Assembly: GCF_016811105.1 (NCBI RefSeq)
Contig: NZ_JAFBGM010000001.1
Span: forward strand, 2,298,126 to 2,362,125
Origin: Aurantibacter crassamenti
Lineage (GTDB): Bacteria > Bacteroidota > Bacteroidia > Flavobacteriales > Flavobacteriaceae
Length of the DNA: 64,000 bases
Direction: 5' to 3'
Under the pieces are notes generated by a model that was not told where the DNA came from, searched no databases, and saw nothing but the letters and a program-made list of their open reading frames with translations. The translations under genes were made by a program, and so were the position numbers. This document shows, piece after piece, positions 16,962-32,201 of this stretch. Position 1 is the first letter of the stretch; each line of letters begins with the position of its first letter.

Positions 16962-17038
16962 CTAGTTTGGGGTGTAAACCTATGTTATTAAAAGTATAAG
17001 ATCCACGAATATATAGTAGTAAGATAGAATTAGATTCC

Positions 17039-17046
17039 TATTTTTG
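17039..17046 (+). promoter_or_regulatory. -7 promoter box for the nusB operon
   Basis: TATTTTTG matches TAnnTTTG, 37 nt before the nusB ATG. A -33 element is not clear. Confidence 0.55.
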
Positions 17047-17082
17047 CCAAGAATTAATACCAAATCACAAAAGTTCTTTTAA

Positions 17083-18030: not shown

Positions 18031-18112
18031 AATATTTCTGTAATTTTACGTTTTATATGTAAATCGTATGATTTTATATAACTAAATAATTAACAGTCAA
18101 AAAAGTAGAGTG

Positions 18113-18589
18113 ATGAAAAGAGTATTTCTAGTATTTGGTTTAATAGGAGCTTTGACTTTCGTTTCTTGTAAAGAAAACAATGCCACAGCGAAAATCAACA
18201 CTGAAAATGTAGCTGATGCTGCAGAACGTGATCAAGCAGCAAAACAAGTTCCGGTAATGGAGTTTGAAAAAGCTGAACATGATTTTGGAACCATTAATCA
18301 AAATGATCCGCAAGAAACAGCATTTGTTTTCAAGAACACAGGTAATGCACCATTAATAATTACAGATGCTACAAGTAGCTGTGGTTGTACAGTGCCAAAT
18401 CCACCAAAAGATCCTATTGCACCCGGTGAAACAGGAGAATTAGTGGTGAAGTTTAATGGATCTGGTCAAAACCAAGTCACTAAAACAATTACGGTTAAAG
18501 CGAACACAGAAAAAGGCTCAGAGTTATTGAGAATTAAGGCTTTTGTTACGCCTAAAGGTGCTGCACCAACAGGACCAACAGCAAACTAA
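18113..18589 (+). CDS. DUF1573 lipoprotein
   Basis: 158-residue exported protein. A signal peptide with lipobox FVSC places the mature N-terminus on a lipidated Cys in the envelope. The rest is one DUF1573 Ig-like domain, with the family motif HDFGTINQ followed by FVFKNTGNAPLIIT and SSCGCTVP. The role of DUF1573 is not established. ATG 18113 was preferred to the GTG at 18110. It lies between nusB and yajC, an order I recall as common in Flavobacteriia. Confidence 0.9.
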   Translation: MKRVFLVFGLIGALTFVSCKENNATAKINTENVADAAERDQAAKQVPVMEFEKAEHDFGTINQNDPQETAFVFKNTGNAPLIITDATSSCGCTVPNPPKDPIAPGETGELVVKFNGSGQNQVTKTITVKANTEKGSELLRIKAFVTPKGAAPTGPTAN

Positions 18590-18616
18590 TATTAACAAAC
18601 ACGAGAACACTATATT

Positions 18617-18910
18617 ATGGAGAATTTAGGGCAGTTTTTGCCGATGATTCTAATTTTTGCCGTTGCATATTTTTTTATGATACGACCGCAAATGAAGCGT
18701 CAAAAAGATGAAAAAAAGTTTGCAGCAGAATTAAAACGTGGGGATCGCGTCATTACTAAAAGTGGCCTTCATGGCAAAGTTTTAGAATTGAACGATAAAG
18801 ATTTTTCATGCATTTTAGAAACTATGGCAGGTAAATTAAAATTTGATCGTTCGGCAATTTCACTAGAAATGAGCAAGAAATTAAATGTATCGCCAGTAGA
18901 GAAAAAATAA
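18617..18910 (+). CDS. yajC: Preprotein translocase accessory subunit YajC
   Basis: 97-residue inner-membrane protein. A single N-terminal helix (FLPMILIFAVAYFFMIRP) is followed by a cytoplasmic domain with the family signature KRGDRVITKSGLHGKV. YajC associates with SecDF in protein export. Last gene of the nusB-DUF1573-yajC run, with a strong terminator directly after it. Confidence 0.95.
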   Translation: MENLGQFLPMILIFAVAYFFMIRPQMKRQKDEKKFAAELKRGDRVITKSGLHGKVLELNDKDFSCILETMAGKLKFDRSAISLEMSKKLNVSPVEKK

Positions 18911-18933
18911 ATAGACTTTAGTTTTATGTATAG

Positions 18934-18963
18934 AAGCGTCAACCATTGGTTGACGCTTTTTTT
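18934..18963 (+). terminator. Intrinsic terminator after yajC
   Basis: AAGCGTCAACC, loop ATT, GGTTGACGCTT: a perfect 11-bp stem followed by a T tract, 23 nt past the yajC stop. Confidence 0.93.
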
Positions 18964-19050
18964 ATGCTTAAAATTCTTATCTTCAATGAGAATTTTAGCA
19001 GATTGAAAATATTGATATCAATTCAATTCTGAATACAAAACTACAAGTAG

Positions 19051-20400
19051 ATGAATCACAATAGAAGAAATTTTTTAAAGAAAAGTTCACTGGCTCTAGC
19101 AGGCAGCGGAGCTGCATTTATGTTTCCGATGGAATTATTGGCAAGCATGCGTAAAAGAGTAAGTGCCAATGATAAAATTCAAGTTGGCTTAATCGGTTGT
19201 AAAGGCATGGGCTTTTCAGATCTAACTTCAATGCTAAAAATTAGTGAAGTAGAAGTTGTTGCCCTTTGTGATGTTGATAAAAATGTACTTGAAGCGCGAA
19301 CTGCAGACTTAGAAAAAGCAGGTGTCAAAAAACCAAAATGGTATAAAGATTACCGTTTGCTTTTAGAAGATAAAGATGTTGATGTAGTCATCATTGGCAC
19401 ACCGGATCATTGGCATTGTCTAATGCTAACAGATGCGTTACAAGCTGGTAAAGATGCCTATTGTGAAAAACCGATTGCCAATTCAGTGCAAGAGGCAGAT
19501 ATCATGTTGAATTATGTAGGGTCAAGCGATCGCATGGTTCAAATAGGGCAGTGGCAACGCAGTCAACCTCATTTTGTAGACGCTATAGAATATGTGCATT
19601 CAGGTAAATTGGGTAATATTCGTTTGGCCAAAGCTTGGGCTTATCAAGGTTGGATGAAACCCGTACCGATAGTTGCTGATTCTGCAGTGCCCGAAGGTGT
19701 TGATTATGACATGTGGTTGGGGCCAGCACCGCAAAGAGCTTTTAATGCAAATCGTTTTCATTTTAATTTCAGATGGTTTTGGGATTATGCGGGCGGATTA
19801 ATGACTGATTGGGGTGTACACCTAATTGATTATGCGCTGTATGGAATGAAAGCAGGCAGACCAAAATCAGTAATGGCCTTGGGAGGTAAATTTGCCTACC
19901 CTGATGATGCCTCTGAAACACCAGATACCTTACAAACCGTTTTTGAATACGATGACTTTTCTATTTTATGGGAACATGCTACGGGTATTGATGGCGGTAA
20001 TTATGGCCGAGATCACGGTATTTCATTTATAGGAAACAATGGTACTTTAGTTGTTGATCGTAGTGGTTGGGAAGTAATACCAGAAGGCCAATTTAATGGA
20101 TGGGGTAAAGAAAAAACGCCAAAAATGGAAGCGATTTTAAAAGACAAAGGCAACGCGAGCGGACTTGATTTACACACCATTAATTTTATTGAGGCTGTAA
20201 AGTCTAGAGACGCTTCTAAGCTCAATGCACCCATAAAAGTAGGTTATGATGCTGCCTTAGTTTCACACATGGGTAACGTAGCCTATAAAACAGGAAATCG
20301 TATTTATTGGGATACCGAAGCCAACCAATTTAAAGAAGAGGAAGCCAATAAATTTTTAAAAGCAAATTATCAAAATGGTTATAAGTTGCCGATGCTATAA
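19051..20400 (+). CDS. Gfo/Idh/MocA-family oxidoreductase with Tat-type signal
   Basis: 449-residue NAD(P)-dependent oxidoreductase, probably periplasmic. It starts with a twin-arginine motif (NRRNFLKKSS) and a hydrophobic stretch. The Rossmann segment is VGLIGCKGMG, with the second conserved block CEKPIANSVQEA (the catalytic EKP lysine) and the C-terminal GGLMTDWGVHLID motif with its conserved His. Secreted members in Bacteroidota usually act on sugars or inositols. The true substrate is unknown. It marks the left border of the accessory island that follows. Confidence 0.92.
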   Translation: MNHNRRNFLKKSSLALAGSGAAFMFPMELLASMRKRVSANDKIQVGLIGCKGMGFSDLTSMLKISEVEVVALCDVDKNVLEARTADLEKAGVKKPKWYKDYRLLLEDKDVDVVIIGTPDHWHCLMLTDALQAGKDAYCEKPIANSVQEADIMLNYVGSSDRMVQIGQWQRSQPHFVDAIEYVHSGKLGNIRLAKAWAYQGWMKPVPIVADSAVPEGVDYDMWLGPAPQRAFNANRFHFNFRWFWDYAGGLMTDWGVHLIDYALYGMKAGRPKSVMALGGKFAYPDDASETPDTLQTVFEYDDFSILWEHATGIDGGNYGRDHGISFIGNNGTLVVDRSGWEVIPEGQFNGWGKEKTPKMEAILKDKGNASGLDLHTINFIEAVKSRDASKLNAPIKVGYDAALVSHMGNVAYKTGNRIYWDTEANQFKEEEANKFLKANYQNGYKLPML

Positions 20401-20450
20401 TTGTTTGTAAATAGCTAACGAGGTACGTTTAGCGAATTGTTATCTACAAG

Positions 20451-21026
20451 TTGGAGAAATTTAAAGAATATATTAACCCTTTTGACAAAATGATTCCTGA
20501 GGAATGGGATATCATTAAAACTATGGCCGAACTTAAAGTCTTGAAAAAAGAAGACTCTTTAATTCAACAAAATGCTTTTTTTGAGAAAGAGGTTTTTATA
20601 GAGAAGGGAATAATCAGAGCCTATATAATTGATGATGACGGAAACGAAAAAAGCATTGCCTTTTATGAGGAAGGAAAGTTTATGAGTACATCTACGCTTC
20701 GAACTTTAAATGGTAGATCTCTGCATTACTACCAAGCAATGTGCAAAACCGAACTCATCTTATTTAATTCAAATGAATTAAAATCTTTTTTTTCTAACAA
20801 CAATTTCCTGTCTGAAATTGGAAAAACAATAAAAGAGGGTGAGATTAAAAGACAAAACAATAGGGATAACTGTCTTTTACAAGTAAAAGGAAGAGATAAG
20901 TATTTAAACTTCATAAAACATTACCCCAACATAGAATTACACATATCGCAAAAACATATTGCATCTTATTTAGGAATTACGCCCATTTCATTGAGTAGAA
21001 TTAAGTCTAATCTCAGAAAAATGTAA
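20451..21026 (+). CDS. Crp/Fnr-family transcriptional regulator
   Basis: 191-residue regulator with an N-terminal cyclic-nucleotide-binding-like beta roll (about 20-120) and a C-terminal winged helix, whose recognition region reads SQKHIASYLGITPISLSRIKS. The cNMP-binding Arg/Glu motif is not evident, which is usual for this Bacteroidota subgroup. The start is TTG; the first in-frame ATG at 20490 would remove part of the roll. It precedes a membrane protein and a small unknown protein. Confidence 0.88.
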   Translation: MEKFKEYINPFDKMIPEEWDIIKTMAELKVLKKEDSLIQQNAFFEKEVFIEKGIIRAYIIDDDGNEKSIAFYEEGKFMSTSTLRTLNGRSLHYYQAMCKTELILFNSNELKSFFSNNNFLSEIGKTIKEGEIKRQNNRDNCLLQVKGRDKYLNFIKHYPNIELHISQKHIASYLGITPISLSRIKSNLRKM

Positions 21027-21065
21027 GTGATAACAATTGATAACAGAAAAAGAAGATTGAGAATC

Positions 21066-21073
21066 TAGTTTTG
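21066..21073 (+). promoter_or_regulatory. -7 promoter box before the 21101 membrane protein
   Basis: TAGTTTTG matches TAnnTTTG. It covers the in-frame TTG at 21071, which argues that translation starts at the ATG at 21101. Confidence 0.5.
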
Positions 21074-21100
21074 TGTATTAACTCACATAATCGATTTTCA

Positions 21101-21646
21101 ATGAAAAAAATACTTCACGTTCTTTACAAAAAAGGACAATACAAAATTGCGTTTCCTATAATCATTTTAGGGTTTGTTTTACAAGCCATTTTAATTCTTA
21201 AATACCTACCCGAATTCCTAAGTTATTCGAACGGTGTAAAAAATCCAGACCAATTATTCTCTTATAATTTTGAATACCTAAGCAATCTGTATCAACAACT
21301 AGGTGAAGAAGGAAGAGCTTTTTATTCCGAAATGCTGGGTGTTGATTTTTTGTATACAACAATTTCTGGCATTGGCTATTGTTTACTGCTTGCTGCTTTA
21401 GTAAAAAAAGTGAAATGGTATATTATTCTGCCTTTGTTTTTGGCTATTTCAGATGTTTTTGAAAATATTTCTCAGCTTTTGTTAATGTCCCTTTTTCCAA
21501 AAATCAGTACATCTGAAGTTTCGATAGCCAGTATTTTTACGTCTACTAAAATGACGCTTAGTATTATTTGTGTCGTTTTAATTTTATTCTTTATAGTGAA
21601 AAACGTCTTTAATTGGATTAAAACAAGAAGTGATTATGAAAAATAA
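21101..21646 (+). CDS. Hypothetical four-helix membrane protein
   Basis: 181 residues from the ATG. Four hydrophobic segments lie at about 12-35, 83-103, 107-128 and 148-172, with a soluble loop between the first two. The family was not recognised. Its transcript probably starts at the box just upstream, downstream of the Crp-like gene. It overlaps the next gene by 11 bp, so the two are coupled. A link to the upstream regulator is inferred from position only. Confidence 0.7.
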   Translation: MKKILHVLYKKGQYKIAFPIIILGFVLQAILILKYLPEFLSYSNGVKNPDQLFSYNFEYLSNLYQQLGEEGRAFYSEMLGVDFLYTTISGIGYCLLLAALVKKVKWYIILPLFLAISDVFENISQLLLMSLFPKISTSEVSIASIFTSTKMTLSIICVVLILFFIVKNVFNWIKTRSDYEK

Positions 21647-22064
21647 AAACTTTAAGACAGGTTGGCTCGTTGAAAATAAGCTTGCAGCTCTAACTCATTT
21701 TCATTCAAATATTTCACTAGAAGATATTCAAGGTGTATTGCAGGAAACCACTCAAATGATTTCAAATCTAAAAGAGCCTTTTAATATCATAATTGATAAT
21801 CGATTAGCACCTATTGATAGAATATTCTCTTTGAGAGAATTTCAAAGTAGTTCTTCTCTTTTAAATCATTCACTATTAAACTATTTAATAGTTATAAAAC
21901 CACTTCACTTGACTTTAAATGAAAGACAAAAAGAATTGGAAATTTCAAACGGAGTCAAATTAATAAATACAGATTCTGTAAAAAGTGCTATTAAAATAGT
22001 CAAAGGAGTAGAAAAGGATATTCAATCAGAGAAAATTGATCTGACCTTTTTTCCTGATTTCTAA
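21636..22064 (+). CDS. Hypothetical small protein, possibly STAS-like
   Basis: 142 residues, no signal peptide. It alternates predicted strands and helices (GWLVENKLAALTHFH, then NIIIDNR). The pattern is loosely like STAS/SpoIIAA-like domains, but no diagnostic motif is present, so function is unknown. ATG 21636 is used rather than the GTG at 21630. It overlaps the membrane-protein gene and ends just before the first inverted-repeat element of the island. Confidence 0.65.
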   Translation: MKNKNFKTGWLVENKLAALTHFHSNISLEDIQGVLQETTQMISNLKEPFNIIIDNRLAPIDRIFSLREFQSSSSLLNHSLLNYLIVIKPLHLTLNERQKELEISNGVKLINTDSVKSAIKIVKGVEKDIQSEKIDLTFFPDF

Positions 22065-22082
22065 TTTGAACGGAAAAGAAAA

Positions 22083-22222
22083 ACCTGTAGATAACATAAT
22101 GTATAAGTAATAGCTCCTTTCTGCTATCCGAAAGGTCAGTGCATTTTAGTATCTTTCGTCTAAATAGTTTCTATGGTGGGTTTTATACGCTACTACTCAT
22201 ACATGGGACGTTGTAAGTAATT
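22083..22222 (+). repeat. Cassette-type intergenic element 1 (inverted-repeat ends)
   Basis: About 140 bp. Left arm ATGTATAAGTAATAGC (22098-22113) and right arm GCTACTACTCATACAT (22189-22204) pair over 14 of 16 positions. The right end continues into GACGTTGTAAGTAATT, shared with element 2. The interior carries the CCGAAAGGTCAGTGC motif seen in elements 5 and 6. The right end abuts the TTG start of the next gene. Confidence 0.65.
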
Positions 22223-22821
22223 TGAAAAAAGTAAAATTTCACATATTATTATTAGGACTATTTCTTATCTTCTGTAAAAAAGTTGAAAAGAAACCTATCC
22301 GCATATCCAATGAATTTAAGATTGAATTTTTGAATGAAATTCTCTCGGACACAATGGATTTAAAAATAATCGAATCCAAAAGTCAATTAATTTCTAATTA
22401 TAGTTATATGGTTCCACCTTTTCTGCCAATTGACCCAACCAATTCAAGAAAAACTATAAGCCTAACAAGATATATTGCCGATTCTCTGAAAGTGATGGAC
22501 ACAATGTTTATTAAAAACCAATTTATTGACAACAAAAAATTGAATCTAAATAGACTGTCTGATTACGGATATAAAATATTTGACTATAAAACCATTGTAG
22601 AAAATAAAGTCCCAGAGGATTCTATTTGGAAATTAGTAGATAGTCTAAACAAAGGGACTGAAAATTACAGTTTCTTAAAAATCAGTAAACCAGTTTTTAA
22701 TGAAAATAAAAGCTTAGCATATATCCGATTGGAGCAAGGGAGCGGAGGAGATTCCTATATTTTGGAGAAAGTTGATGGAAAATGGACTAAAAAGTATCAT
22801 CTAGCAATGTGGGTGGAATAA
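22222..22821 (+). CDS. Hypothetical lipoprotein-like protein
   Basis: 199 residues. The N-terminus (FHILLLGLFLIFCKK) looks like a lipoprotein signal with Cys near residue 18, followed by a charged soluble domain ending GDSYILEKVDGKWTKKY, a pattern typical of small secreted proteins of unknown role. The start is TTG, directly at the end of repeat element 1, with no ATG nearby. It is flanked on both sides by cassette-type elements. Family not recognised. Confidence 0.65.
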   Translation: MKKVKFHILLLGLFLIFCKKVEKKPIRISNEFKIEFLNEILSDTMDLKIIESKSQLISNYSYMVPPFLPIDPTNSRKTISLTRYIADSLKVMDTMFIKNQFIDNKKLNLNRLSDYGYKIFDYKTIVENKVPEDSIWKLVDSLNKGTENYSFLKISKPVFNENKSLAYIRLEQGSGGDSYILEKVDGKWTKKYHLAMWVE

Positions 22822-22824
22822 AAA

Positions 22825-23027
22825 CTACTTACAACAAAACCTATAAACAATACGGGCTTCGGGCTTAATCGAAAGGTTTGCGTATTTTTATGAAGTCCGC
22901 AAAATCTTTTGGATTTTGCTCTGGACAAGAAAAAATAAATCAAAACAAAAAGATTTTGCTATGTGCATAGCGGAAAGCAAACGCTAGTTTGCTCCCGTAC
23001 TGTTCATAGCTAAACCGTTGTAGGTAA
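22825..23027 (+). repeat. Cassette-type intergenic element 2
   Basis: About 200 bp, starting 3 nt after a stop codon. The outer arms (22825-22856 and 22994-23027) are strongly complementary: ACTTACAAC pairs with GTTGTAGGT and ATACGGG with CCCGTAC. Inside, TCCGC/GCGGA (22896-22900, 22970-22974) and GCAAAATC/GATTTTGC (22899-22919) form nested stems. A second GATTTTGC lies at 22952-22959. The next gene starts 10 nt after the right arm. Confidence 0.8.
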
Positions 23028-23036
23028 TTATCAAAA

Positions 23037-23501
23037 ATGAAAATTGAATATAGAAATATAAGCCCGAATGAAACTGAAGCTATAAATCAAATTTCTGATT
23101 GGTATTTAAGCGAGTGGAAAATCTCAAAAATAAAAACAACAAAAAGTCTGACTGAAAGTACAAATCAAAATGTTATTTTTCAGACTATAATGACTGATGA
23201 AAAAAAACTTATAGGTACTGGTGGACTTTATCATAAAGTTGGAATCCAAAGCCGAATTAAAAAATATGAAAATTATTCCCCTTGGATTGCTTTGATGTTT
23301 ACTGAACCTAAAATAAGAGGAAAAGGTCTCGGCAGTAAATTATTAGATGAAATTGAATTAGAAGCTAAAAAGAAAGGATTTGAGAAGATTTATCTATTTA
23401 CTCATACTGCAGAATCACTATATATAAGAAAAGGATGGAATGAAATTGACAGATATCAAATAGAAGGGAAAAACATTGTGATTATGGATAAAGAAATATA
23501 A
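23037..23501 (+). CDS. GNAT-family N-acetyltransferase
   Basis: 154-residue acetyl-CoA-dependent acyltransferase. The acetyl-CoA pyrophosphate-binding motif A is RGKGLGSKLLDE near residue 99, followed by the helix ELEAKKKGFEKIYLFT and the C-terminal LYIRKGWNEI block. The substrate is unknown; single-gene GNATs are common cargo in gene cassettes. It sits alone between repeat elements 2 and 3 and has no obvious promoter of its own. Confidence 0.9.
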   Translation: MKIEYRNISPNETEAINQISDWYLSEWKISKIKTTKSLTESTNQNVIFQTIMTDEKKLIGTGGLYHKVGIQSRIKKYENYSPWIALMFTEPKIRGKGLGSKLLDEIELEAKKKGFEKIYLFTHTAESLYIRKGWNEIDRYQIEGKNIVIMDKEI

Positions 23502-23504
23502 AAC

Positions 23505-23706
23505 TACCTACAACATTGGCTATAATTAATACGGGTTTTGGTTCTTAACCCAAAGTCTAGTGCTTTAAACCAAGTCCGCCAAATCTTTTGGATTTGGCTT
23601 TTAAAATAAAAAAGATAAAAACAAAACAAAAAGCTTTGGCTACATGTGCAGGCGGAAACGAAAAGTTTCCTTGCCTCCGCACTACGTTTAGCTTAGGCAT
23701 TAGGTA
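23505..23706 (+). repeat. Cassette-type intergenic element 3
   Basis: About 200 bp, beginning 3 nt after the GNAT stop. Left end CTACCTACAACATTGGCTAT, right end about 23677-23706 (TAGCTTAGGCATTAGGTAC), partly complementary. Internal hairpin GCCAAATC-TTTTG-GATTTGGC (23578-23598), with TCCGC/GCGGA outside it (23575-23579, 23652-23656). The next ATG is 14 nt downstream. Confidence 0.8.
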
Positions 23707-23719
23707 CAATTAAAAAAAA

Positions 23720-25171
23720 ATGAAGCACTCACATTTAATAATAGTCTTTTTAATAATTTTCTGTGGGTGCAAGTCATCTGAAAAACTCGTAGAAAAGAAG
23801 GAAACTAAACAAGATTTAATAAATTTTCTATTCCAAGATTATATCGGGGAGAAGCCAAGCGCGAGTTTCATTGTCGTAAAAGATGGCAAAATAAGAGATT
23901 GTCAAAGTTTTGGATATGCTGATTTAGAAAATAAAATCCTTGCCAATTGTGAAACGAATTATAGACTTGCCTCGGTTACAAAGCAGTTTACCGCAATGGG
24001 AATTTTAGTTTTAATAAATCAAGGAAAGTTAAGTTATGACACTAGGTTAACCGAAGTACTTCCTGAATTCCCGGAATATGGGAAAGAAATTACGATTAAA
24101 AATTTAATGTCGCACAGGTCAGGTTTACAAGATTATTCCAAACTATACCCAAAAGATGCCGAAAAGCAACTTGTAGATAAAGAGGTGCTCAACCTTCTAA
24201 TTAAACAGGATAGCCTCTTATTTCCAGCGAATTCCAACTTCAAATACAGTAATTCAGGCTATGCTGTTTTGGCAATGATAATAGAACGGGTTTCGGGCAA
24301 ATCCTTTAAAGAATTTATGGATAAGGAGATTTTTGAAAAAACAGGTATGGCTAATAGTACCGTTTACTTAAAAGACTTACAGATTAAAAATCGTGCATAT
24401 GGGTATAAATTCAATGACACGATATATGAAAATAAAGACCAAAATATATGGTCAGCCATCCAAGGCGATGGCGGAATTTATTCGTCTGTAAATGATTATG
24501 TGCATTGGGATAGTAGTTTATATGATGAAACACTTGTGAAAACAGATTTAAGAAACGATGCTTTTTCAAATTGGGATGAAAATGGTAAAACTGATGGAAA
24601 GGGCTATGGTTTCGGGTGGCAGATTGATATAAAAAATAATAGAAAATATTTAATGCACGGTGGCAGCACTACAGGATTTCTAAATTATTCTTTAAGGATT
24701 CCTTCAGAGAAAATTGCAGTAGTAATTTATACAAATACCACAGATTATGGTGGACTAGGACGCAAAGCGCATTTTTTAGCAAGCTATTATTCTGATGGTA
24801 AACTTCCTATTCCAGCTGATGTATTACTTGAAAAAGACATTGAAGAGAATGGAATAGAAAACAGTACGAATAAATTTAATCAACTAAAATCTAACACTAC
24901 AAAATATGATATTGTAGAAAATGATTTGGTCTCTTTGGGTTTTAGGTATATGAAAAAAGAATCCGAAAAAGCACTAAAAATATTTGAATTGGTTAAAACA
25001 GAATTTCCAAATTATTTAGGAGGGTATTTTGGATTAGCACAATACTATAAAGCGAAAGAAAATAACGAGAAGGCAGTTAATTATTTCACAAAAGTAATAG
25101 AGGTCGCAACAAGCGAAAATCAACGTCAGATTGATTATTCAAAGAAAATGATAAAACAATTGAGCGAATAA
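23720..25171 (+). CDS. Serine hydrolase (class C beta-lactamase/PBP-like) lipoprotein with C-terminal helical repeat
   Basis: 483 residues. A lipoprotein signal (IIFCGCKSS) is followed by the beta-lactamase-type domain: SxxK as S85-V-T-K88, the YSN triad at Y176, and HGG at about 313 in place of KTG. This is the class C/DD-peptidase/esterase arrangement. Residues about 395-483 look like a TPR-type helical pair (EKALKIFELVKTEFPNYLGG then ENNEKAVNYFTKVIE). It could cleave beta-lactams, peptidoglycan peptides or esters; sequence alone does not decide. It stands alone between elements 3 and 4. Confidence 0.9.
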   Translation: MKHSHLIIVFLIIFCGCKSSEKLVEKKETKQDLINFLFQDYIGEKPSASFIVVKDGKIRDCQSFGYADLENKILANCETNYRLASVTKQFTAMGILVLINQGKLSYDTRLTEVLPEFPEYGKEITIKNLMSHRSGLQDYSKLYPKDAEKQLVDKEVLNLLIKQDSLLFPANSNFKYSNSGYAVLAMIIERVSGKSFKEFMDKEIFEKTGMANSTVYLKDLQIKNRAYGYKFNDTIYENKDQNIWSAIQGDGGIYSSVNDYVHWDSSLYDETLVKTDLRNDAFSNWDENGKTDGKGYGFGWQIDIKNNRKYLMHGGSTTGFLNYSLRIPSEKIAVVIYTNTTDYGGLGRKAHFLASYYSDGKLPIPADVLLEKDIEENGIENSTNKFNQLKSNTTKYDIVENDLVSLGFRYMKKESEKALKIFELVKTEFPNYLGGYFGLAQYYKAKENNEKAVNYFTKVIEVATSENQRQIDYSKKMIKQLSE

Positions 25172-25177
25172 AACTGT

Positions 25178-25370
25178 GCCTAACAATGGCTATAGCAAAT
25201 AGGGCATAAAGTGCTAAATTTATTGGCTTGGAGTTATTTGCTAGGCCGCCAAATCTTTTGGATTTGGTTTTTAAATAGAAAAAAATAAAACAAAAAGATT
25301 TCGCTAAGTGCGTTGGGGAAAGCAAACACTGGTTCGCTCCCGTACTATTAATAGCTAAACCGTTGTGGTT
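25178..25370 (+). repeat. Cassette-type intergenic element 4
   Basis: About 190 bp. Left end TGCCTAACAATGGCTATAGC begins 7 nt after a stop codon and contains GCCTAAC, an RYYYAAC match as in attC sites. The right end (about 25339-25368) includes CCCGTACTATTAATAGC and CGTTGTGG. Internal hairpin GCCAAATC-TTTTG-GATTTGGT at 25248-25268. The next gene is on the opposite strand, its stop 4 nt away. Confidence 0.8.
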
Positions 25371-25373
25371 AAT

Positions 25374-25817
25374 TTAAGAAAGATGAGGCATTCCTATTCC
25401 AGTTTCAACAAAACGCTTTAAACTTTGAGTTACAAATCTTTCCCAAGCCGGAAAACAAATTTCATAACAGTTTAACTCAGGAACTAATCCATTATGTGCG
25501 AAATTTAGAATTGTTTCCTTTTGACCTTTTTCTTCCAAAACCCATTCAACAAGAGTTCCTTCCCACTCTTTTTCAATTCCATCATAACCATTGTGAATAT
25601 GTTTAGCCTCAATACATTTCCATACAATTTTTCTATTAGGTTCAAATTCGGAGATTTTAAACTTCCAATAAGTACTATCAAAACTTGTAGTGAATTCATC
25701 ACCAACTGAAGAAACTGAATTATCTGTATTTCCCCACCATTTTTGGACGTGTTGTGAAATAGCATTGAATACTTCTTGTATAGTTCCATTAATCGAAACC
25801 ATTGTTGTGTATGACAT
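25374..25817 (-). CDS. SRPBCC/AHSA1-family protein
   Basis: 147-residue START-like helix-grip domain, of the type often annotated as activator of Hsp90 ATPase homologue or polyketide cyclase-like. Typical features are the early VFNAISQHVQKWWG helix and the GTLVEWVLEEKGQKETILNF strand pair. Such proteins bind hydrophobic ligands; none is identified here. It is divergent from an HxlR regulator and shares a symmetric promoter region with it, so it is the likely target gene. It points against most genes of the island. Confidence 0.87.
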   Translation of the reverse strand: MSYTTMVSINGTIQEVFNAISQHVQKWWGNTDNSVSSVGDEFTTSFDSTYWKFKISEFEPNRKIVWKCIEAKHIHNGYDGIEKEWEGTLVEWVLEEKGQKETILNFAHNGLVPELNCYEICFPAWERFVTQSLKRFVETGIGMPHLS

Positions 25818-25859
25818 AATTTAATTTTAAACTATTAATAGTGCTTGCGAATTACAAGT

Positions 25860-25910
25860 GCAAATATATAAAAGTACTTTTATTTTGCAAGTACATTTTT
25901 ATATATTTGC
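25860..25910. promoter_or_regulatory. Symmetric divergent promoter/operator between SRPBCC and HxlR genes
   Basis: Minus-strand TATATTTG (25861-25868) and plus-strand TATATTTG (25902-25909) lie at the ends of one large imperfect dyad: GCAAATATATAAAAGTACTT (25860-25879) against the nearly complementary 25889-25910. A perfect 16-bp palindrome ATAAAAGTACTTTTAT (25868-25883) lies inside. One regulator dimer could block both promoters. Confidence 0.7.
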
Positions 25911-25912
25911 TT

Positions 25913-26341
25913 ATGAAACAGATTGAAAGAAGGTCGGACTGTCCAATTAGCTTATCGCTTGACATTTTTGGAGACAAATGGACTTTACTAATTTTAAGAG
26001 ATTTTATTTTCTTTAACAACAGACACTTTAACGAGTTAGTAACAGTTGAAAAAATATCTACAAATATTCTTGCTGACCGATTAAATCGACTACTTGAAAA
26101 TGATATTGTAAAAAAAGAAATTGATAGGAATAATAAATCTTCATATCTGTATTCGTTAACAGAAAAAGGAATTGATTTAATTCCGATAGTTATTGAAATT
26201 TATAAATGGGGAGCAAACAATATTGACGAAAATAATGCTAATAGTGAATTTAAAAATGAAGTGAATTCTAATTTTAGTAAAGTGACATCGGAAATAGTTG
26301 AACGAATAAAAACTACCCACAATAACGTATATAAAACATAG
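25913..26341 (+). CDS. HxlR-family winged-helix transcriptional regulator
   Basis: 142 residues from ATG 25913. It has the HxlR signature: a Cys-containing start (RRSDCPISLSLDIFGDKWTL), the recognition helix ISTNILADRLNRL and the wing LYSLTEKG. The N-terminal Cys may sense electrophiles or oxidants, as in YodB/HypR. The start was moved from the longer frame (25841) because the -7 box ends 3 nt upstream; the mRNA may be leaderless. The last nine or ten residues are encoded by the left arm of repeat element 5. Confidence 0.9.
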   Translation: MKQIERRSDCPISLSLDIFGDKWTLLILRDFIFFNNRHFNELVTVEKISTNILADRLNRLLENDIVKKEIDRNNKSSYLYSLTEKGIDLIPIVIEIYKWGANNIDENNANSEFKNEVNSNFSKVTSEIVERIKTTHNNVYKT

Positions 26342-26514
26342 TTAATTCAGGCTTTTCCAAAGGTTTTTACTTATTTACGAAGTCAACTAAATTTTTATTT
26401 TTAAATATTAGAAATTAAAAGATAAATAGAAAAATAAAAATTGGGCTCGTGTCTAATCCGAAAAGTTAGTGTCTTTTTACACGCTACGTATCATACACAA
26501 ATCCGTTAGCCAAC
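26313..26514 (+). repeat. Cassette-type intergenic element 5 (diverged)
   Basis: Left end CTACCCACAATAACG lies inside the HxlR coding sequence; right end about 26484-26514 with CCGTTAGCCAAC. The interior has a perfect 13-bp inverted repeat AATTTTTATTTTT (26390-26402)/AAAAATAAAAATT (26430-26442), and the AATCCGAAAAGTTAGTG motif shared with elements 1 and 6. The outer arms are more diverged than in elements 2-4. Confidence 0.6.
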
Positions 26515-26576
26515 ATAACAAGCAACCAACTAAAATCATAGAAAAAAATCAAAATCAATATAAAAATTTGGAAACT

Positions 26577-26596
26577 CATATACCGTAGAGTATATT
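26577..26596. promoter_or_regulatory. Operator-like dyad upstream of the TetR gene
   Basis: CATATACC-GTAG-AGTATATT, an imperfect copy of the perfect dyad at 27209-27228. It ends 6 nt before the TetR ATG and overlaps the TATATTAG promoter-like box. Autoregulation is inferred. Confidence 0.65.
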
Positions 26597-26602
26597 AGCG
26601 AA

Positions 26603-27193
26603 ATGATAAGGTCAGAAAAAACAAGACAATTAATAATTGAAAAAACAGCTTCTATATTCAATAAAAAGGGATATACAGGAACGTATTTGTCCGATTTAAC
26701 CAATGCTACTGGATTGACAAAGGGTAGTATTTATGGCAATTTCAAAGATAAAAACGAAGTCGCTTTAGAAGCTTTTAAATTCAATTATAAATTTCAGACT
26801 CGTCAAATAATTGACAAAATAGAGAAAGAAGATAATTCAGTAAATAAATTAATTGCATTTCTAAATCATTATAAAACATCATTTAAACCAATTTTTAAGA
26901 ATGGAGGTTGTGCAATCTTAAATACTGCTGTTGATACTGATGATGGCAATGAATTATTAAAAAAAGAAGTTGTAAAAACAATTCATAATTGGCACAAAAC
27001 AATTGTTGCAATTTTAATTGAAGGAGTGAATAAAAACGAACTCAAAGAAATAGACATCGAGCTATTTTCGTATCGAATGATTGCTATAATTGAGGGTAGC
27101 ATTTTATTGGCAAAAACATTGAATAAACCAGAGATTTTATTAAATAACATAGAACATCTAGAAACAGAAATTTTACAATTAAAACAGAAGTAA
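26603..27193 (+). CDS. TetR/AcrR-family transcriptional regulator
   Basis: 196 residues. The N-terminal helix-turn-helix contains the TetR signature YLSDLTNATGLTKGSIYGNF; the C-terminal ligand domain contains NGGCAILNTAVD, a TetR_C-type pocket. It is likely to repress itself and the ketoacyl synthase 51 bp downstream, since the same 20-bp dyad lies before both genes. The ligand is unknown. The two genes form one cargo unit between elements 5 and 6. Confidence 0.92.
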   Translation: MIRSEKTRQLIIEKTASIFNKKGYTGTYLSDLTNATGLTKGSIYGNFKDKNEVALEAFKFNYKFQTRQIIDKIEKEDNSVNKLIAFLNHYKTSFKPIFKNGGCAILNTAVDTDDGNELLKKEVVKTIHNWHKTIVAILIEGVNKNELKEIDIELFSYRMIAIIEGSILLAKTLNKPEILLNNIEHLETEILQLKQK

Positions 27194-27208
27194 AAAAATT
27201 TAATCATT

Positions 27209-27228
27209 CATATACCGTAAGGTATATG
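27209..27228. promoter_or_regulatory. Operator-like perfect dyad upstream of the ketoacyl synthase gene
   Basis: CATATACC-GTAA-GGTATATG, perfect 8-bp arms with a 4-bp centre, ending 16 nt before the ATG. It matches the dyad before the TetR gene at most positions, so TetR control is the simplest reading. Confidence 0.75.
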
Positions 27229-27244
27229 GTACAGATATATAAAT

Positions 27245-28492
27245 ATGAAAAGAGTAGTAATAACAGGACTAGGAGCAATTACACCTATTGGAAAAAATGT
27301 AAAACAGTATTGGGAAAATCTATTGAAAGGAATTTCAGGTGCAAATAAAATAACACGTTTTGATGCAAGCAATTTCAAAACTCAATTCGCTTGTGAAATA
27401 AAAGACTATGATGCTTTAGATTATTTTGACCGTAAGGAAGCTAGAAAACTTGATAGGTTTAGTCAATATGGACTAATCTCGGCAGAAGAAGCAATCAAAG
27501 ATGCTAATCTCGATTTTTCAAAATTAGACACTAACAGAATTGGTGTAATTTTTTCGAGTGGAATTGGTGGCTTTGAAACTTTTGAAAAAGAAATAATTGA
27601 TTATACAAATGGGAATTTCAACCCTCGTTTTAATCCGTTTTTTATTCCAAAAATAATATCCAATGGTTTGTCTGGTATAATTTCAATTAACCACGGACTC
27701 AGAGGTGTAAATTATTGCCCTGTTACAGCTTGTGCTTCATCAACACAAAGCATTATTCAATCCTTTAATTATATCAGGTTAGGAAAAGCAGATGTTATTA
27801 TCGCTGGTGGTTCAGAAGCACCAATAACAGAATCATCAATTGGAGGATTTAACGCTATGAAAGCAATGTCCACCAACAATGAAAATTTCAGTTCCGCTTC
27901 AAAACCATTCGACACAAACAGAGATGGTTTTGTCGTTGGAGAAGGTGCAGGGGCTTTAATTATAGAAAGTCTTGATACGGCATTGAAAAGAAATGCGAAA
28001 ATTTATGCAGAAATTGTTGGGGGTGGAGAAAGTTCAGACGCTTATCATATAACTGGAACACATCCCGAAGGGCTTGGAGCATATTTAGCAATGCAAAACG
28101 GAATAAAAGAAGCAGAAATCACACCAAATGAAATTGATTATATAAATGCACACGCAACGTCAACTGGTTTAGGAGATTTATCTGAAATTAAGGCAATCGA
28201 AAGACTGTTTAAATCAAGTATTGAAAAAGTACAAATTAGTGCGTCTAAATCTATGACTGGACATTTATTAGGCGGAACTGGTGCCATAGAAGCAATATCG
28301 ACTTGTCTATCCGTGAAAACAGATTTGATACCACCAACAATCAATACAACAAAAATTGATGAAAATATTCCCATGGAATTAAACCTGTCTTTAGGAGAAA
28401 CGTCTTCGAAAAAAGTTAATTATGCTTTAAGTAATAGTTTTGGATTTGGAGGACATTGTTCGGCAATGATAATCAAAAAATACGTTGGCTAA
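27245..28492 (+). CDS. Beta-ketoacyl-ACP synthase II-like protein (FabF family)
   Basis: 415-residue condensing enzyme that extends acyl-ACP with malonyl-ACP. The complete Cys-His-His triad is present: C163 (VTACASST), H303 (NAHATSTGLGD), H340 (MTGHLLGGTGA). The length equals housekeeping FabF, but it sits in an accessory array without other fab genes and under a TetR gene, so it is probably an extra copy. Possible roles are making special acyl chains or bypassing a FabF inhibitor (inference). Its stop codon lies inside the left arm of element 6. Confidence 0.93.
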   Translation: MKRVVITGLGAITPIGKNVKQYWENLLKGISGANKITRFDASNFKTQFACEIKDYDALDYFDRKEARKLDRFSQYGLISAEEAIKDANLDFSKLDTNRIGVIFSSGIGGFETFEKEIIDYTNGNFNPRFNPFFIPKIISNGLSGIISINHGLRGVNYCPVTACASSTQSIIQSFNYIRLGKADVIIAGGSEAPITESSIGGFNAMKAMSTNNENFSSASKPFDTNRDGFVVGEGAGALIIESLDTALKRNAKIYAEIVGGGESSDAYHITGTHPEGLGAYLAMQNGIKEAEITPNEIDYINAHATSTGLGDLSEIKAIERLFKSSIEKVQISASKSMTGHLLGGTGAIEAISTCLSVKTDLIPPTINTTKIDENIPMELNLSLGETSSKKVNYALSNSFGFGGHCSAMIIKKYVG

Positions 28493-28681
28493 CAATGTAT
28501 GTAAAAAATAGGGCAAGTCATTGCTAACACTATGGTTTGGGCATTTTTAGAAAGTCGCCAAATTTTTAATTTGTATTTTAGACAACAGTAATTTTAAAAT
28601 AAAATTAAAAATATAGCTTCGTGCTAAACCGAAAGTTAGATGCTTACCAAACGCCCAATTTTTCTTATACTGAACGTTGGC
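28487..28681 (+). repeat. Cassette-type intergenic element 6
   Basis: Left arm GGCTAACAATGTATG...TAGGGC (28487-28514) overlaps the stop codon of the preceding gene. Right arm GCCC...ATACTGAACGTTGGC (28653-28681) is largely complementary with a small bulge, much like an attC stem. Internal hairpin CAAATT-TTT-AATTTG (28559-28573). It carries the AAACCGAAAGTTAGATGC motif. Confidence 0.75.
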
Positions 28682-28722
28682 AAACATTTTGACAAAACTA
28701 ATCAACAGAATAACCACCATTA

Positions 28723-29652
28723 ATGAAAATTAAATCATTTAGAATATCAATAGTAGCTTTATTTATATTACTTCTATCTTGTAATTCTAAGGTTAAAGAG
28801 AATCTCAGCCTTGAAAGTCAATTAAATGAGTTGATTGAAAACTTCGACGGCGAAGCTCATTTATACGCTGAAAATATTACAACTGGCCAGATCATAGATA
28901 TTGATGCAAGTAGTATTCATAATGCTGCAAGCGAAGCAAAAATTTACATTTTACTTACTTATGCCGAACAAGTTATTAGTGGCACTTTAGACCCAACAAG
29001 CCTAATAACACTAACAGAAGAAGACAAAGTTTTAGGTTCAGGTGTGTTACGTTTTGAATATTCAGGTAATCAAGTTTCACTATCGTTTGTTGCATACTTA
29101 ATGATGTCTATTTCTGATAATGTTGCAACCAATATATTATTAAGGGAAGTTGGAGGAATAGCATCGGTTGACAAATTTTTGAAAAAAGTAGGTATTAATG
29201 ATACCAAAGTAAAAGGAGAAGTTTTTAAAGGAGATTGGATTTCGACTTCAGCAAAGTCATTAGCAACTGCAGCTCAAATATTAGCTCGACCAGAAAAATA
29301 TGGTTATTCAAAAAAAGCTGCAGATTTATGCAAAAGCATTATGTTAAAACATTATGAAGATAATGGATTGGCGCGGCACCTGCCTTGGAGTCCATTTGTA
29401 GAAGAGGTGACAACTATGGAAGCATTCGAAAAATACAAACCAATTTACGCTGGAATTGAATTGTATGGCAAAGCAGGATATACACCAGGTTATCGAGGAG
29501 ATGTTGCTTATATAAAAACATCTAAAAGTGAATATGTTATCGGACTAAAATGTACAAACGTAGATGATTCAAAACCACTTAATTCAACAAATGCAGGATT
29601 TGAATTTTCAGCAGAAATTGGTGAACTACTTTATAATAATTGGGGCAAATAA
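28723..29652 (+). CDS. Class A beta-lactamase-like serine hydrolase lipoprotein
   Basis: 309 residues with a lipoprotein signal (LLLSCNS). The class A catalytic set falls at near-Ambler positions: S70-E-A-K73, S131-D-N133, E166 in GEVFKGD, and K250-A-G in place of KTG. The acylation Ser, the deacylation Glu and the SDN loop are all present, so true beta-lactamase activity is possible; the KAG change and low similarity to known enzymes leave a peptidase or esterase role open. It is a single cargo gene downstream of element 6. Confidence 0.88.
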   Translation: MKIKSFRISIVALFILLLSCNSKVKENLSLESQLNELIENFDGEAHLYAENITTGQIIDIDASSIHNAASEAKIYILLTYAEQVISGTLDPTSLITLTEEDKVLGSGVLRFEYSGNQVSLSFVAYLMMSISDNVATNILLREVGGIASVDKFLKKVGINDTKVKGEVFKGDWISTSAKSLATAAQILARPEKYGYSKKAADLCKSIMLKHYEDNGLARHLPWSPFVEEVTTMEAFEKYKPIYAGIELYGKAGYTPGYRGDVAYIKTSKSEYVIGLKCTNVDDSKPLNSTNAGFEFSAEIGELLYNNWGK

Positions 29653-29679
29653 TAAAGTAGATTAAAAAAACGAATGAAA

Positions 29680-29701
29680 AACAATGGCTGTAAGTACTTG
29701 C
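29680..29701 (+). repeat. Possible truncated cassette-type left end
   Basis: AACAATGGCTGTAAGTACTT resembles the left ends of elements 3 and 4 and lies 28 nt after the serine hydrolase stop, but no matching right arm follows before the converging gene. It may mark the right border of the island. Confidence 0.35.
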
Positions 29702-29769
29702 AATTTTTTTTCGGTTTGTAGTTGCCAATTTTTAGGTTGTGACATAAAAGCATTCACAAGTCTAAAAAA

Positions 29770-30363
29770 TCACCGATACCGGTCGTTCAAACCTTTACCA
29801 GCCTCCAACATAGGAATAATTTTTTCAAGCCGAGACAGCTTTGTTTTTTCCTGTTTTGCCTGCGCTATATATTCGGTGTATTCCTTTTGCTTATATGGCG
29901 TTAACGATTTAAAATTTTTATTTGCCACAGTATTTTTTACAAGTGCATCTTTAAGTAATTTGGGGATGATAATCTTTGCTTTCTTCTTTTTCACTGGCGC
30001 TAATACCAAGCCTTTTTTTTGATTTTCTATTGATTCTTTAATATAATTGAGAACAGCTATTTCATCAATTTCTTCTACAGATTTAAAATGCCAGTGGCGC
30101 ATTGCCTTTGTTCCTTTTTGGACGTTAATTAAAACTTTCTTGGGGTCTGATAGAAACACTCCATTGAAAAAACCAATACCAAAATGATTTTTGAATCGAG
30201 CAATCCAGAAAACATTTTTACCATCTATACCATAAACTGGAGCTTGCCATTTAAAAAATTCTTCAGCATTCGCTTTAAGAGCTATTTCTCTTAAAATTTG
30301 AATGCCTTTGGCAAACTGATGTTCTTGGTTGTAATAGGCTTCAACTTTTTCTGAATAATCCAT
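29770..30363 (-). CDS. YdeI/OmdA-family protein with DUF1801-like domain
   Basis: 197 residues, no signal peptide. The N-terminal ~115 residues resemble DUF1801 (KWQAPVYGIDGKNVFWIARFKNHFGIGFF). The C-terminal part is YdeI-like: LKNTVANKNFKSLTPYKQKEYTEYI-type sequence ending in a basic tail. YdeI-type proteins have been linked to resistance against cationic peptides or bacteriocins. ATG 30363 is chosen over GTG 30366. It lies 11 bp downstream of pepT in the same direction. Confidence 0.85.
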   Translation of the reverse strand: MDYSEKVEAYYNQEHQFAKGIQILREIALKANAEEFFKWQAPVYGIDGKNVFWIARFKNHFGIGFFNGVFLSDPKKVLINVQKGTKAMRHWHFKSVEEIDEIAVLNYIKESIENQKKGLVLAPVKKKKAKIIIPKLLKDALVKNTVANKNFKSLTPYKQKEYTEYIAQAKQEKTKLSRLEKIIPMLEAGKGLNDRYR

Positions 30364-30374
30364 CACATAACATT

Positions 30375-31607
30375 TTATTCTTTTGATTTCAGCGCAGTAA
30401 ATTCACAAATTCTAACAATAACTTCAGTGGCTTTTACCATACTATGTACGGGTACATATTCAAATTTACCATGAAAATTATGGCCCCCTGCAAAAATATT
30501 AGGGCAAGGTAATCCCATATAACTCAATTGAGATCCATCAGTTCCGCCGCGTATGGGTTTAATAATTGGGGTAACACCAACAGCTTCCATAGCTTCTTTT
30601 GCAATATCAACAATATGCAAAACAGGTTCTATCTTTTCGCGCATATTGTAGTATTGGTCGTTCATTTCTAGTGTAATACAATTGTTGTGAATTGCATTTA
30701 AATTATCAGTAATGACCTGTAGTAATTGTTTTCGTTCTTCAAACTTTTCTTTATCGTGATCTCTAATAATCAACTGAAATTCAGCGTTTTCAATTTCACC
30801 TTTTAGCGAATGCACATGAAAAAAGCCTTCTCGGCCTGTAGTATGCTGAGGTGTTTCTTCAGGTGGAAGAATAGACATGAATTCATTGGCAATACTAATG
30901 GCATTAACCATTTTACCTTTAGCATAGCCAGGGTGCACACTTCTACCTTCAATAATGATTTTTGCACCTGCGGCATTAAAGTTTTCATATTCGAGTTCGC
31001 CAATTTGGCTTCCATCCATAGTATAGGCCCATTCCGCTCCAAATTTTTCAACATCAAATTTATGGGCGCCACGGCCAATTTCTTCATCAGGCGTAAATCC
31101 AATTCTAATTTTACCGTGTTTTACTTCAGGATTTTTCACCAAGTAGCTCATTGCAGTAATTATTTCGGTAATTCCTGCTTTATCATCGGCCCCCAAAAGG
31201 GTAGTGCCATCAGTTGTTATTAAAGTTTGTCCTTTGTATTGAAGCAAATCCTCAAAATAATCCGGAGAAAGAATAATATTCTTTTCGGCATTAAGAACAA
31301 TGTCTTTTCCGTCATAATTCTCAATTATTTGTGGATTTACATCTTTTCCAGTAAAATCTGGAGAGGTATCAAAATGAGAAATAAATCCGATGGTAGGCAC
31401 CTCATAGTCTACATTACTCGGCAAAGTGGCCATAATGTAGGCGTTGTTGTCAATAGTCACATCTGAAAGGCCTATTTCTTGTAAATCAAAAACAAGTTCT
31501 TCGGCGATATGCCATTGTTTTTCGGTACTTGGGGTGGTTTTTGAATTGGGGTTGCTTTGCGAGTCAATCATTGCATATCGCAAAAAGCGGTCAATAATCT
31601 GCTTCAT
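30375..31607 (-). CDS. pepT: Peptidase T (tripeptide aminopeptidase, M20B)
   Basis: 410-residue cytosolic zinc tripeptidase. M20 metal ligands are visible: H in ISHFDTSPD, bridging D in [10 protein letters not shown], catalytic EE in [11 protein letters not shown] in YTMDGSQIG and H in [12 protein letters not shown]. The lid/dimerisation domain lies between about 210 and 320 ([13 protein letters not shown]-like segment). The length matches E. coli PepT. It is probably cotranscribed with the YdeI-like gene. Confidence 0.95.
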
Positions 31608-31674
31608 TAATATAATTTTTTAGTAAAAATACTGTTTATTAGTAAGTTGTATAACCTACTAAGCCCAAATCTGT

Positions 31675-32127
31675 ATGGTTTATTTCAAGCATTTAAAAGT
31701 TTTTGTTATTTTTTTATTCGTCATCGGTTATGGTCAAGCGCAAACCGTTGATTGTACCTTAGATATTGGTGGAAAAACTGCAGAATCTGTTACTGTTATT
31801 TTTCAATTGAATGAAGAGCAGAAACAGTTGATGGAAGAGTTACGAGCAAAATATTCAATAACCTACAAGGGAATTGAAGACGAAATGATAAAGCTTTTAG
31901 CAGAACATCCGCAAAGCACGCCAGAAGAACTATTGACTTTAGCAGAAAAATACAAAGCTTTACAAGACAAAGTAGTACTTGAATCTTGGTCTATTGATGA
32001 AAAATTATTAGCGACTTTTAATCAACGACAATATGATTTTTACCTTTCATTATGTCATGAAGCGTACAGAAGACCAATTGAGGTGACCCCAGTTATTTAT
32101 GATGGACCTCTAGAAGAAAAAAAATAG
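31675..32127 (+). CDS. Hypothetical exported helical protein
   Basis: 150 residues. The N-terminal hydrophobic segment FVIFLFVIGYGQAQ is a signal peptide. The mature part is mainly helical and charged, with two cysteines (near 27 and 131) that may form a disulfide. Family not recognised. It is divergent from pepT and about 75 bp upstream of pyrD, which has its own promoter box. Confidence 0.65.
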   Translation: MVYFKHLKVFVIFLFVIGYGQAQTVDCTLDIGGKTAESVTVIFQLNEEQKQLMEELRAKYSITYKGIEDEMIKLLAEHPQSTPEELLTLAEKYKALQDKVVLESWSIDEKLLATFNQRQYDFYLSLCHEAYRRPIEVTPVIYDGPLEEKK

Positions 32128-32173
32128 TTCATTTTAATCTACTTTCTATCCAAATTTGAACGGTAATAGTTTG

Positions 32174-32181
32174 TATTTTTG
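32174..32181 (+). promoter_or_regulatory. -7 promoter box for pyrD
   Basis: TATTTTTG, 20 nt before the pyrD ATG, with a TTTG at 32155-32158 as a slightly close -33 element. Confidence 0.55.
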
Positions 32182-32201
32182 CCAGTATATTACAGCAAAA
32201 T

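Follow-up and report, generated by a model that had tools for sequence, protein, structure and literature searches.

In the genome of Aurantibacter crassamenti, the intergenic elements that separate the genes of one array very probably serve as attC-type recombination sites of an integron-type system of the Bacteroidota, with the separated genes as its mobile cassettes. The array lies at 20402..29773 (+) in a stretch of 64,000 nucleotides (contig NZ_JAFBGM010000001.1, positions 2,298,126 to 2,362,125), which is referred to below as the window, and consists of about seven cassettes. Comparison of sequences gives this reading its basis in the topology of the sites, in the unit and borders of the cassettes, in the lineage-specific nature of the insertion, and in the location of an integrase gene beside such arrays in related bacteria. 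On the same basis, the system is integron-like in its topology, its unit, its point of exchange and its attI site; by the tests that define them, it is not an IntI integron.

Arm pairing and the mobile unit

An earlier note on this DNA, made from the letters alone, had reported six intergenic elements with shared ends. All six were recovered at the places given there by a covariance model (R1) built from 14 element copies of the window's genome, five of the six being among its seeds; since RNAalifold found only 9 base pairs in the first alignment of elements, the model is driven mainly by sequence. The elements are indeed related, but there is no match between the 5' and 3' ends of the same element: in the window, the 5' arm of an element is complementary not to its own 3' arm but to the 3' arm of the previous element, across the gene. 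For example, the start of element e6, GTTGGCTAAC, and the end of e5, GTTAGCCAAC, are near reverse complements, as are the start of e3, TACCTACAAC, and the end of e2, GTTGTAGGTA; the match of the e4 arm is weaker and is tied with another arm. When the seven 3' arms of the window are assigned to the six 5' arms, the observed assignment is the unique best of 5040. In integrons, the inverse core at the end of a cassette matches the core at the start of that same cassette.

The pairing was scored on 138 elements, after omission of those of L034 and L035, one partial element (L026:11902-12045), one cut element (L121:19820) and weaker or opposite-strand matches. An arm score of at least 9 was reached with the previous element in 53 of 105 successive pairs, with the element's own arm in one, and in 65 of 5215 comparisons of random arms; the previous arm outscored the element's own in 73 of the 105 pairs, with ties in 13. 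These alignments yielded a strict rule, according to which a cassette starts with GTT-N6-M-ATT and ends with AAC-K-N6'-AAC, N6' being complementary to N6. The 533 kb of loci studied, which include those from which the rule was derived, hold 115 strict cassettes, as against 0.2 in shuffled sequence. For 81 loci that are independent of this derivation, having been fetched by protein only, the count is 21 as against 0.33; the cassettes lie in 10 of these loci, among them loci of Winogradskyella, Seonamhaeicola, Algibacter, Rufibacter, Alkalitalea, a metagenome-assembled genome (MAG) of the Sphingobacteriales and a MAG of the Spirochaetota.

Altogether, 171 strict cassettes (167 of them distinct; L159 and L227 are the same DNA) were found in 45 loci, with a median length of 687 bp, and none of the 45 loci has them on both strands. 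The longest open reading frame (ORF) reaches at least 80 aa in 154 of these cassettes and lies on the strand of the array in 151 of the 154; between the stop codon of the longest ORF and the AAC end, the median distance is 15 nt. Ninety-one different hexamers occur among the strict cassettes, and in none of the 71 sites that lie between two of them do the two hexamers of one site match each other. Just outside the hexamer, the pair is C.A in 177 of 191 matches and C.G in none, in a table of 382 rows that counts each match on both strands and omits L159; a C.A pair is a mismatch on the top strand and a G.T pair on the bottom strand. The R' motif GTTRRRY and the R'' motif RYYYAAC are each present in 11 of the 171 strict cassettes, their GTT and AAC being already part of the rule. 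The 71 sites are observed in two size classes, with an inner length of about 110-129 nt (52) or 170-199 nt (17), which are mixed within arrays (array loci L112-L131).

Another explanation for the elements would be that they are RNA structures or repetitive intergenic elements, such as terminators or sequences like the repetitive extragenic palindromic (REP) and enterobacterial repetitive intergenic consensus (ERIC) elements. They do lie directly behind stop codons, and e2 folds strongly on both strands (z about -5). However, arms that pair across the gene, with no match between the hexamers of one site, speak against this explanation, as does an insertion difference between relatives (see below). 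Moreover, an Rfam scan of the window gave no match, and the elements are clustered and tied to gene ends rather than scattered over the genome without a link to genes, so that an origin as RNA structures or repeats is scarcely credible.

The borders of the mobile unit can be read from cassettes that are shared between genera. One cassette from the window's genome (L026) shares 94% identity over its full 696 nt with one from a different genus (L117), and two further cross-genus pairs match over their full length (78% over 564 nt and 91% over 307 nt); three more pairs are weaker or only partly alignable. In two pairs, the homology starts 3-19 nt ahead of the GTT; in the third, whose preceding sites are of one type, it starts 69 nt ahead. 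On the right, the homology continues through the site and stops at or just behind the next GTT, as is clearest in L129/L124. Judged from these borders, the mobile unit is TT to the next G, as in integrons. Complementary arms that flank each gene might also be read as the terminal inverted repeats of small transposons, one per gene, for which a transposase is provided in trans. However, the homology between shared cassettes passes the right arm and goes on through the site; the tandem, co-oriented packing, with no locus that has strict cassettes on both strands, and the presence of a tyrosine recombinase at array heads also make such transposons highly improbable.

The array of the window is a lineage-specific insertion. 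In a congener (G184, locus L254), about 190 bp separate the two flanks of the array, 14657-20401 and 29774-35417, and for 20402-29773 no alignment longer than 150 nt was found in any of eight relatives, which means that the cargo is not syntenic across them; the limits of 20401-29769 proposed in the earlier note are within a few bases of this insertion. The left flank reaches 20400 also in G001 and G011 and ends near 18.9 kb in G199, G005, G008 and G013, while G014 yielded the right flank alone; the flanks are close together in seven of the eight relatives. In six pairs of related loci, the block that extends through the integrase gene and attI is homologous, whereas the cassettes behind it differ, pieces of sites aside. 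A Pfam scan (E ≤ 1e-3) that covered 142 of 150 listed cassette ORFs gave 102 families, none of them in more than three ORFs; a few of the ORFs match defence models (methyltransferases, AbiEii and PD-T4-1).

Integrase, attI and zinc-ribbon protein

No integrase was found in the window, in agreement with the earlier note, and a recombinase that correlates with the elements, as that note had suggested might be sought, exists in relatives. The best matches below the cut-off of the integron-integrase profile TIGR02249 are proteins of about 375-410 aa, which in several genomes are encoded at array heads; these heads were picked after the adjacency had been noticed. Twenty further integrase loci, chosen by score and apparent room rather than at random, contain 35 strict cassettes in 11 loci, all on the strand of the integrase, as against a single strict cassette in 20 control loci (12 XerC/XerD and 8 arbitrary). 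Among the nine of these 20 loci that have no strict cassette, five are on contigs that end soon behind the integrase (four within 0.3 kb, one at 2.1 kb). These contigs, of L214, L218, L219, L223 and L229, end 0.1-2.1 kb behind the gene as if repeated sites break assemblies.

The attI site is represented by 19 loci, which were selected because a strict cassette starts there. The GTT of the first strict arm is 33-111 nt behind the stop codon of the integrase gene, and the cassettes read in the direction of this gene. At 13 of the 19 there is a palindrome of 22-26 bp (perfect in 12), which ends 4-7 bp before the GTT and whose sequence differs between genomes.

The gene for a protein of about 125 aa with four invariant cysteines, termed here the zinc-ribbon protein, often lies upstream of the integrase gene in divergent orientation (L113, L124, L126, L139, L118, L217 and others). 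In 43 of the 48 matches listed (E ≤ 1e-31), its gene is 60-215 nt from an integrase match, and among the 35 best integrases, 29 are accompanied by it in the matches listed. A search with one member detected it in 11 of the 20 further integrase loci and in none of the 20 control loci; no match was found at L115, L119, L123, L128 and L131, among other loci. Weaker matches, one in most genomes of the family Flavobacteriaceae, including that of the window, are probably to a paralogue. The Pfam family DUF2116 ("probable treble clef") is matched by 4 of 13 of the proteins, with a best E of 3e-5, and a comparison with the PDB gave no match.

The window's genome, of 4.5 Mb, has 56 places that match R1 with E < 0.01, mostly clustered and with one orientation per cluster: in the window, at both ends of contig 1, at the end of contig 2 and in a few smaller clusters. 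Three of its four contig ends bear elements, so that the assembly probably breaks inside arrays. With the same model, elements were found in 148 of 199 genomes sampled evenly from the family (147 of 198 genera), and a profile of the array integrases matched in 127 of the 199 at E ≤ 1e-60, some of these matches covering the core only. Sites and integrase occur together in 113 genomes, sites only in 35 (among them the window's genome), integrase only in 14 and neither in 37 (Fisher p 8e-10; genome size and completeness are confounders). Among the matches listed, the relatives of the integrase are mainly from Bacteroidota, with more distant Xer-like ones elsewhere. A plasmid of Persicobacter carries an integrase that matches at 44% over 99% of its length, together with a zinc-ribbon gene. 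In the Spirochaetota MAG mentioned above (L170), one strict cassette lies just behind an integrase relative, which reflects either spread beyond the Bacteroidota or a misbinned contig.

These distributions bear on the possibility that the host XerC and XerD move the cassettes and that the recombinase of about 375 aa is a mere neighbour. The window's genome and 34 others have elements and no such integrase at threshold, and XerC- and XerD-like proteins are present in the former: its four tyrosine recombinases over the Pfam cut-off are XerC-like, XerD-like, and two of 432 and 438 aa, and the four sub-cut-off stretches that TIGR02249 matches there, in two frames, are the XerD-like and XerC-like genes. 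However, both the arrays and attI co-locate with the dedicated recombinase, as the contrast with the control loci illustrates, and mobilization by XerC and XerD is thus considered very unlikely.

Several observations weigh against the interpretation of the arrays as cassettes of an integron-type system. In 52 of the 105 successive pairs, the arms fall short of the score, in part because intervening sites were missed or ends misplaced. Six of the 19 attI loci have no significant palindrome (L114, L115, L216, L228, L231 and L233), and four integrase loci have room downstream and no strict cassette (L221, L224, L226 and L232). In the family, 35 of the 148 genomes with elements are without the integrase at threshold, and 14 of the 127 with the integrase are without elements. 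The assembly of the window's genome is one in which no array-type integrase was found at threshold; it may be missing from this assembly owing to breaks inside other arrays. No site is visible by eye at the empty junction of the congener, and the right border of the array in the window is not clean. The last point concerns folding. The bottom strand is the more stable one in 67 of 71 circle forms and 61 of 71 array forms (18 of 70 for gene stretches); yet this is also the case for 60 of 71 shuffled sequences, so that the bias is mostly due to base composition and is counted as weak. Only the size of the mean bottom-top difference, -3.7 kcal/mol as against -1.2 kcal/mol after shuffling, exceeds composition. 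The alternatives offered in the earlier note, an integron that has diverged or a distinct cassette system of Bacteroidota whose sites fold as single strands, are supported by the arrays and their integrase, and single-strand folding is compatible with these comparisons.

A mechanism may be proposed in which the cassette is made up of TT-N6-M-ATT, usually one gene, AAC-K-N6'-AAC, and an inner part of the site of about 110-130 or 170-190 nt. In a free circle, the outer stem would be paired throughout except for one fixed mismatch, and in an array each site would join the halves of two cassettes. The tyrosine recombinase of about 375 aa, with its N-terminal, phage-SAM and catalytic domains, would exchange strands between the G and the TT, excise cassettes as circles and insert them at attI, directly behind its own gene; the divergently encoded zinc-ribbon protein is probably an accessory or regulatory factor. 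Because the bottom strand has a G.T pair where the top strand has the C.A mismatch, the former would be favoured as the folded substrate, as in integrons. In the window, about seven cassettes would have been placed in a plain intergenic site by an integrase acting in trans.

Relationship to IntI integrons and Xer recombinases

The additional domain of IntI is absent in 18 of 18 array integrases, which have 29-30 residues between two anchor columns; the same interval is 71 in IntI1, 71-72 in three IntI of the same alignment and 34-37 in XerC/XerD. In five array integrases out of five, the best NCBIfam model is NF040815 (XerA), with 208-239 bits and with the cut-off of 220 exceeded in two, whereas TIGR02249 gives them 197-211 bits (203 for the L124 protein) against its cut-off of 265. 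None of the 199 genomes of the family has a protein over this cut-off. In the trees (a large one from which L169, L193, L196, L201, L209 and L210 were omitted, and a small one of 44 hand-picked rows), the common form of the array integrase, type A, is one clade with a support of 84, IntI is another with a support of 100, and the host XerC and XerD are separate. A rarer form, type B, branches apart and deeper; it is found in L123 (from the window's genus), L157 and L160. A joint clade with IntI was not rejected by the approximately unbiased (AU) test, with p 0.146 without type B and 0.37 with it, and in these trees IntI and the array integrases may be sisters. Type B is the only type of array integrase seen in the window's genus. 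In L157, the integrase gene is divergent from its one strict cassette, an arrangement like that of class 1 integrons.

The predicted structure of the integrase (mean predicted local distance difference test score, pLDDT, 84.8; predicted template modelling score, pTM, 0.55) was compared by VIA with known structures. Residues 103-374 match XerA (5hxy) with Z 24.9 and a root-mean-square deviation (rmsd) of 14.0, and IntI4 with Z 22.1 and an rmsd of 3.4. About 75 residues at the N-terminus are predicted to fold independently as an extra domain. By VIA, this domain scores highest with the N-terminal domains of UvsW (Z 7.0) and XPB (Z 6.2-6.7) and lower with the HARP domain of SMARCAL1 (Z 4.0), all below the trusted level of 8; the Pfam family HARP is matched weakly, by 2 of 25 N-terminal parts (best E 0.012), and PDB sequences gave no usable match to the domain. 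UvsW, XPB and HARP proteins act on forked or distorted DNA. The likeness to them is weak and is a lead only. Two variants of the N-terminal part were also seen: in L141, L144, L154 and L164, an N-terminal extension resembles, by eye, a second copy of the small N-terminal domain, and in L165, L169 and L176, the N-terminal part of the integrase relatives (675-718 aa) is much longer, L165 having one strict cassette.

Two origins may be considered for the system. One is an ordinary, very diverged integron, in which the integrase would come from IntI by loss of the additional domain and the attC sites would have drifted, with the same mechanism and no separate origin. The C-terminal end of the array integrases is IntI-like by eye (IKNPLD / VRSPLD), and their TIGR02249 scores, their fold match to IntI4 and the joint clade left standing by the AU test all point in this direction. 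However, IntI groups by itself in a clade away from the array integrases, the best model for the latter is that of XerA and not that of the integron integrase, and the TIGR02249 cut-off is passed nowhere in the family; a diverged integron is considered a serious possibility, at somewhat below an even chance. Another possibility, which comes close to an even chance, is that a second integron evolved independently in the Bacteroidota: its integrase would derive from XerA-like recombinases without the IntI domain, an N-terminal domain of the type that acts on fork DNA would read the folded sites, and cassette-specific hexamer arms, a palindromic attI and a zinc-ribbon accessory protein would complete the system. 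A separate origin is thus possible.

Whichever the origin, the likeness to integrons comprises tandem, co-directional, one-gene cassettes with complementary ends within one cassette, exchange at G|TT, and an attI beside a tyrosine recombinase gene, with a stable platform and variable cassettes. The system described here differs from them in lacking the IntI additional domain and having the extra N-terminal domain, in its 13-nt arms, where a hexamer specific to the cassette and an invariant C.A mismatch take the place of GTTRRRY/RYYYAAC, in a palindromic attI located downstream of a co-directional integrase gene, and in its zinc-ribbon neighbour. With XerA, XerC and XerD, the integrase shares the catalytic core, XerA being its best match by both NCBIfam and VIA; unlike these, it forms a clade apart from the XerC and XerD of the family, has the N-terminal domain and is linked to arrays.

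According to excerpts of PMC8618304, PMC9668308 and PMC2426708, integrons have been found in Bacteroidota before; complete ones are rare, IntegronFinder 2.0 reporting one in Bacteroidetes proper, in Salinibacter (excerpt of PMC9024848). In the excerpts of PMC9668308, integron detection requires the IntI domain, and this additional domain is described as necessary for integrons to recombine. A system whose recombinase lacks the hallmark integron domain would be expected to escape standard searches. In the open-access literature excluding preprints, no description of it was recognised; it may have been described elsewhere. Should the system be active, one of the main routes by which these bacteria turn over their genes has gone unnoticed, plausibly because of the IntI-domain requirement in detection. 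It also raises the testable question of whether the additional domain is needed for folded sites or whether another domain can serve.

The array in the window

All sites and cassettes of the window are given on the plus strand. On the left, the array begins with a short border site, e0 (20401..20453); pairing between its 3' arm, GTTATCTACAAG, and the e1 5' arm has an arm score of 12, as against 7 for e1's own arm. Cassette 1 (20440..22210, with borders by the G|TT rule) encodes a Crp-like regulator and two ORFs without a Pfam match; it is followed by e1 (22091..22213; R1 34.5 bits), a site of the short class. Cassette 2 (22211..23017) contains an ORF at 22222-22821 without a Pfam match and conforms to the strict rule (22210-22835), as does cassette 3 (23018..23699; strict rule 23017-23514), which encodes a GNAT acetyltransferase. 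Between their genes is the long-class site e2 (22831..23020; R1 203.5 bits), one of the seeds of the model, as are the four sites that come after it. The next of these, e3 (23510..23702; 167.3 bits), has a 3' arm that starts with ATT rather than GTT.

The next three cassettes are missed by the strict rule. Cassette 4 (23700..25362; arm score 7) encodes a beta-lactamase-family serine hydrolase with TPR and ends in e4 (25180..25365; 167.8 bits). In cassette 5 (25363..26505; arm score 7), a gene for an HxlR regulator is accompanied by a minus-strand ORF without a Pfam match (25374-25817), which is the one unit that the earlier note had seen running against the others; its site is e5 (26319..26507; 105.2 bits). 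Cassette 6 (26506..28676), whose arm score of 10 is that of the e6 and e5 arms quoted above, encodes a TetR regulator and a beta-ketoacyl synthase and ends in e6 (28489..28679; 132.5 bits). The last unit (28677..29773) encodes a hydrolase of the beta-lactamase2 family, and behind 29652 there is, by eye, a possible decayed half-site, AACAATGGCTGTAAGTA, at about 29684. Pfam thus agrees with the cargo named in the earlier note as regards the GNAT protein, the two beta-lactamase-family hydrolases, HxlR, TetR and the ketoacyl synthase; the SRPBCC protein and the lipoprotein that it also named gave no match at E 0.001.

Remnants, therefore, appear at both borders of the array, e0 on the left and the apparent half-site on the right. 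A partner arm for e6 was sought downstream, and a partner for the 5' side of e0 itself upstream, and neither was found. With six sites and no such integrase in the assembly, the window contains an integrase-less cassette cluster and in this resembles a cluster of attC sites lacking integron-integrases (CALIN), from which it differs in that its sites are of another type. A further possible likeness is to the insertion of cassettes at non-classical attG sites, cited as Loot et al. 2024 in an excerpt of PMC12901181: the cluster of the window also lies in a plain intergenic site, the difference being that about seven cassettes are present together and that the right border is not clean.

Within cassette 6, a near-identical motif with ATATACCGTA..GTATAT is found at 26559-26595, before the TetR gene, and at 27191-27227, before the ketoacyl synthase gene. 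It is probably the operator of the cassette's own regulator.

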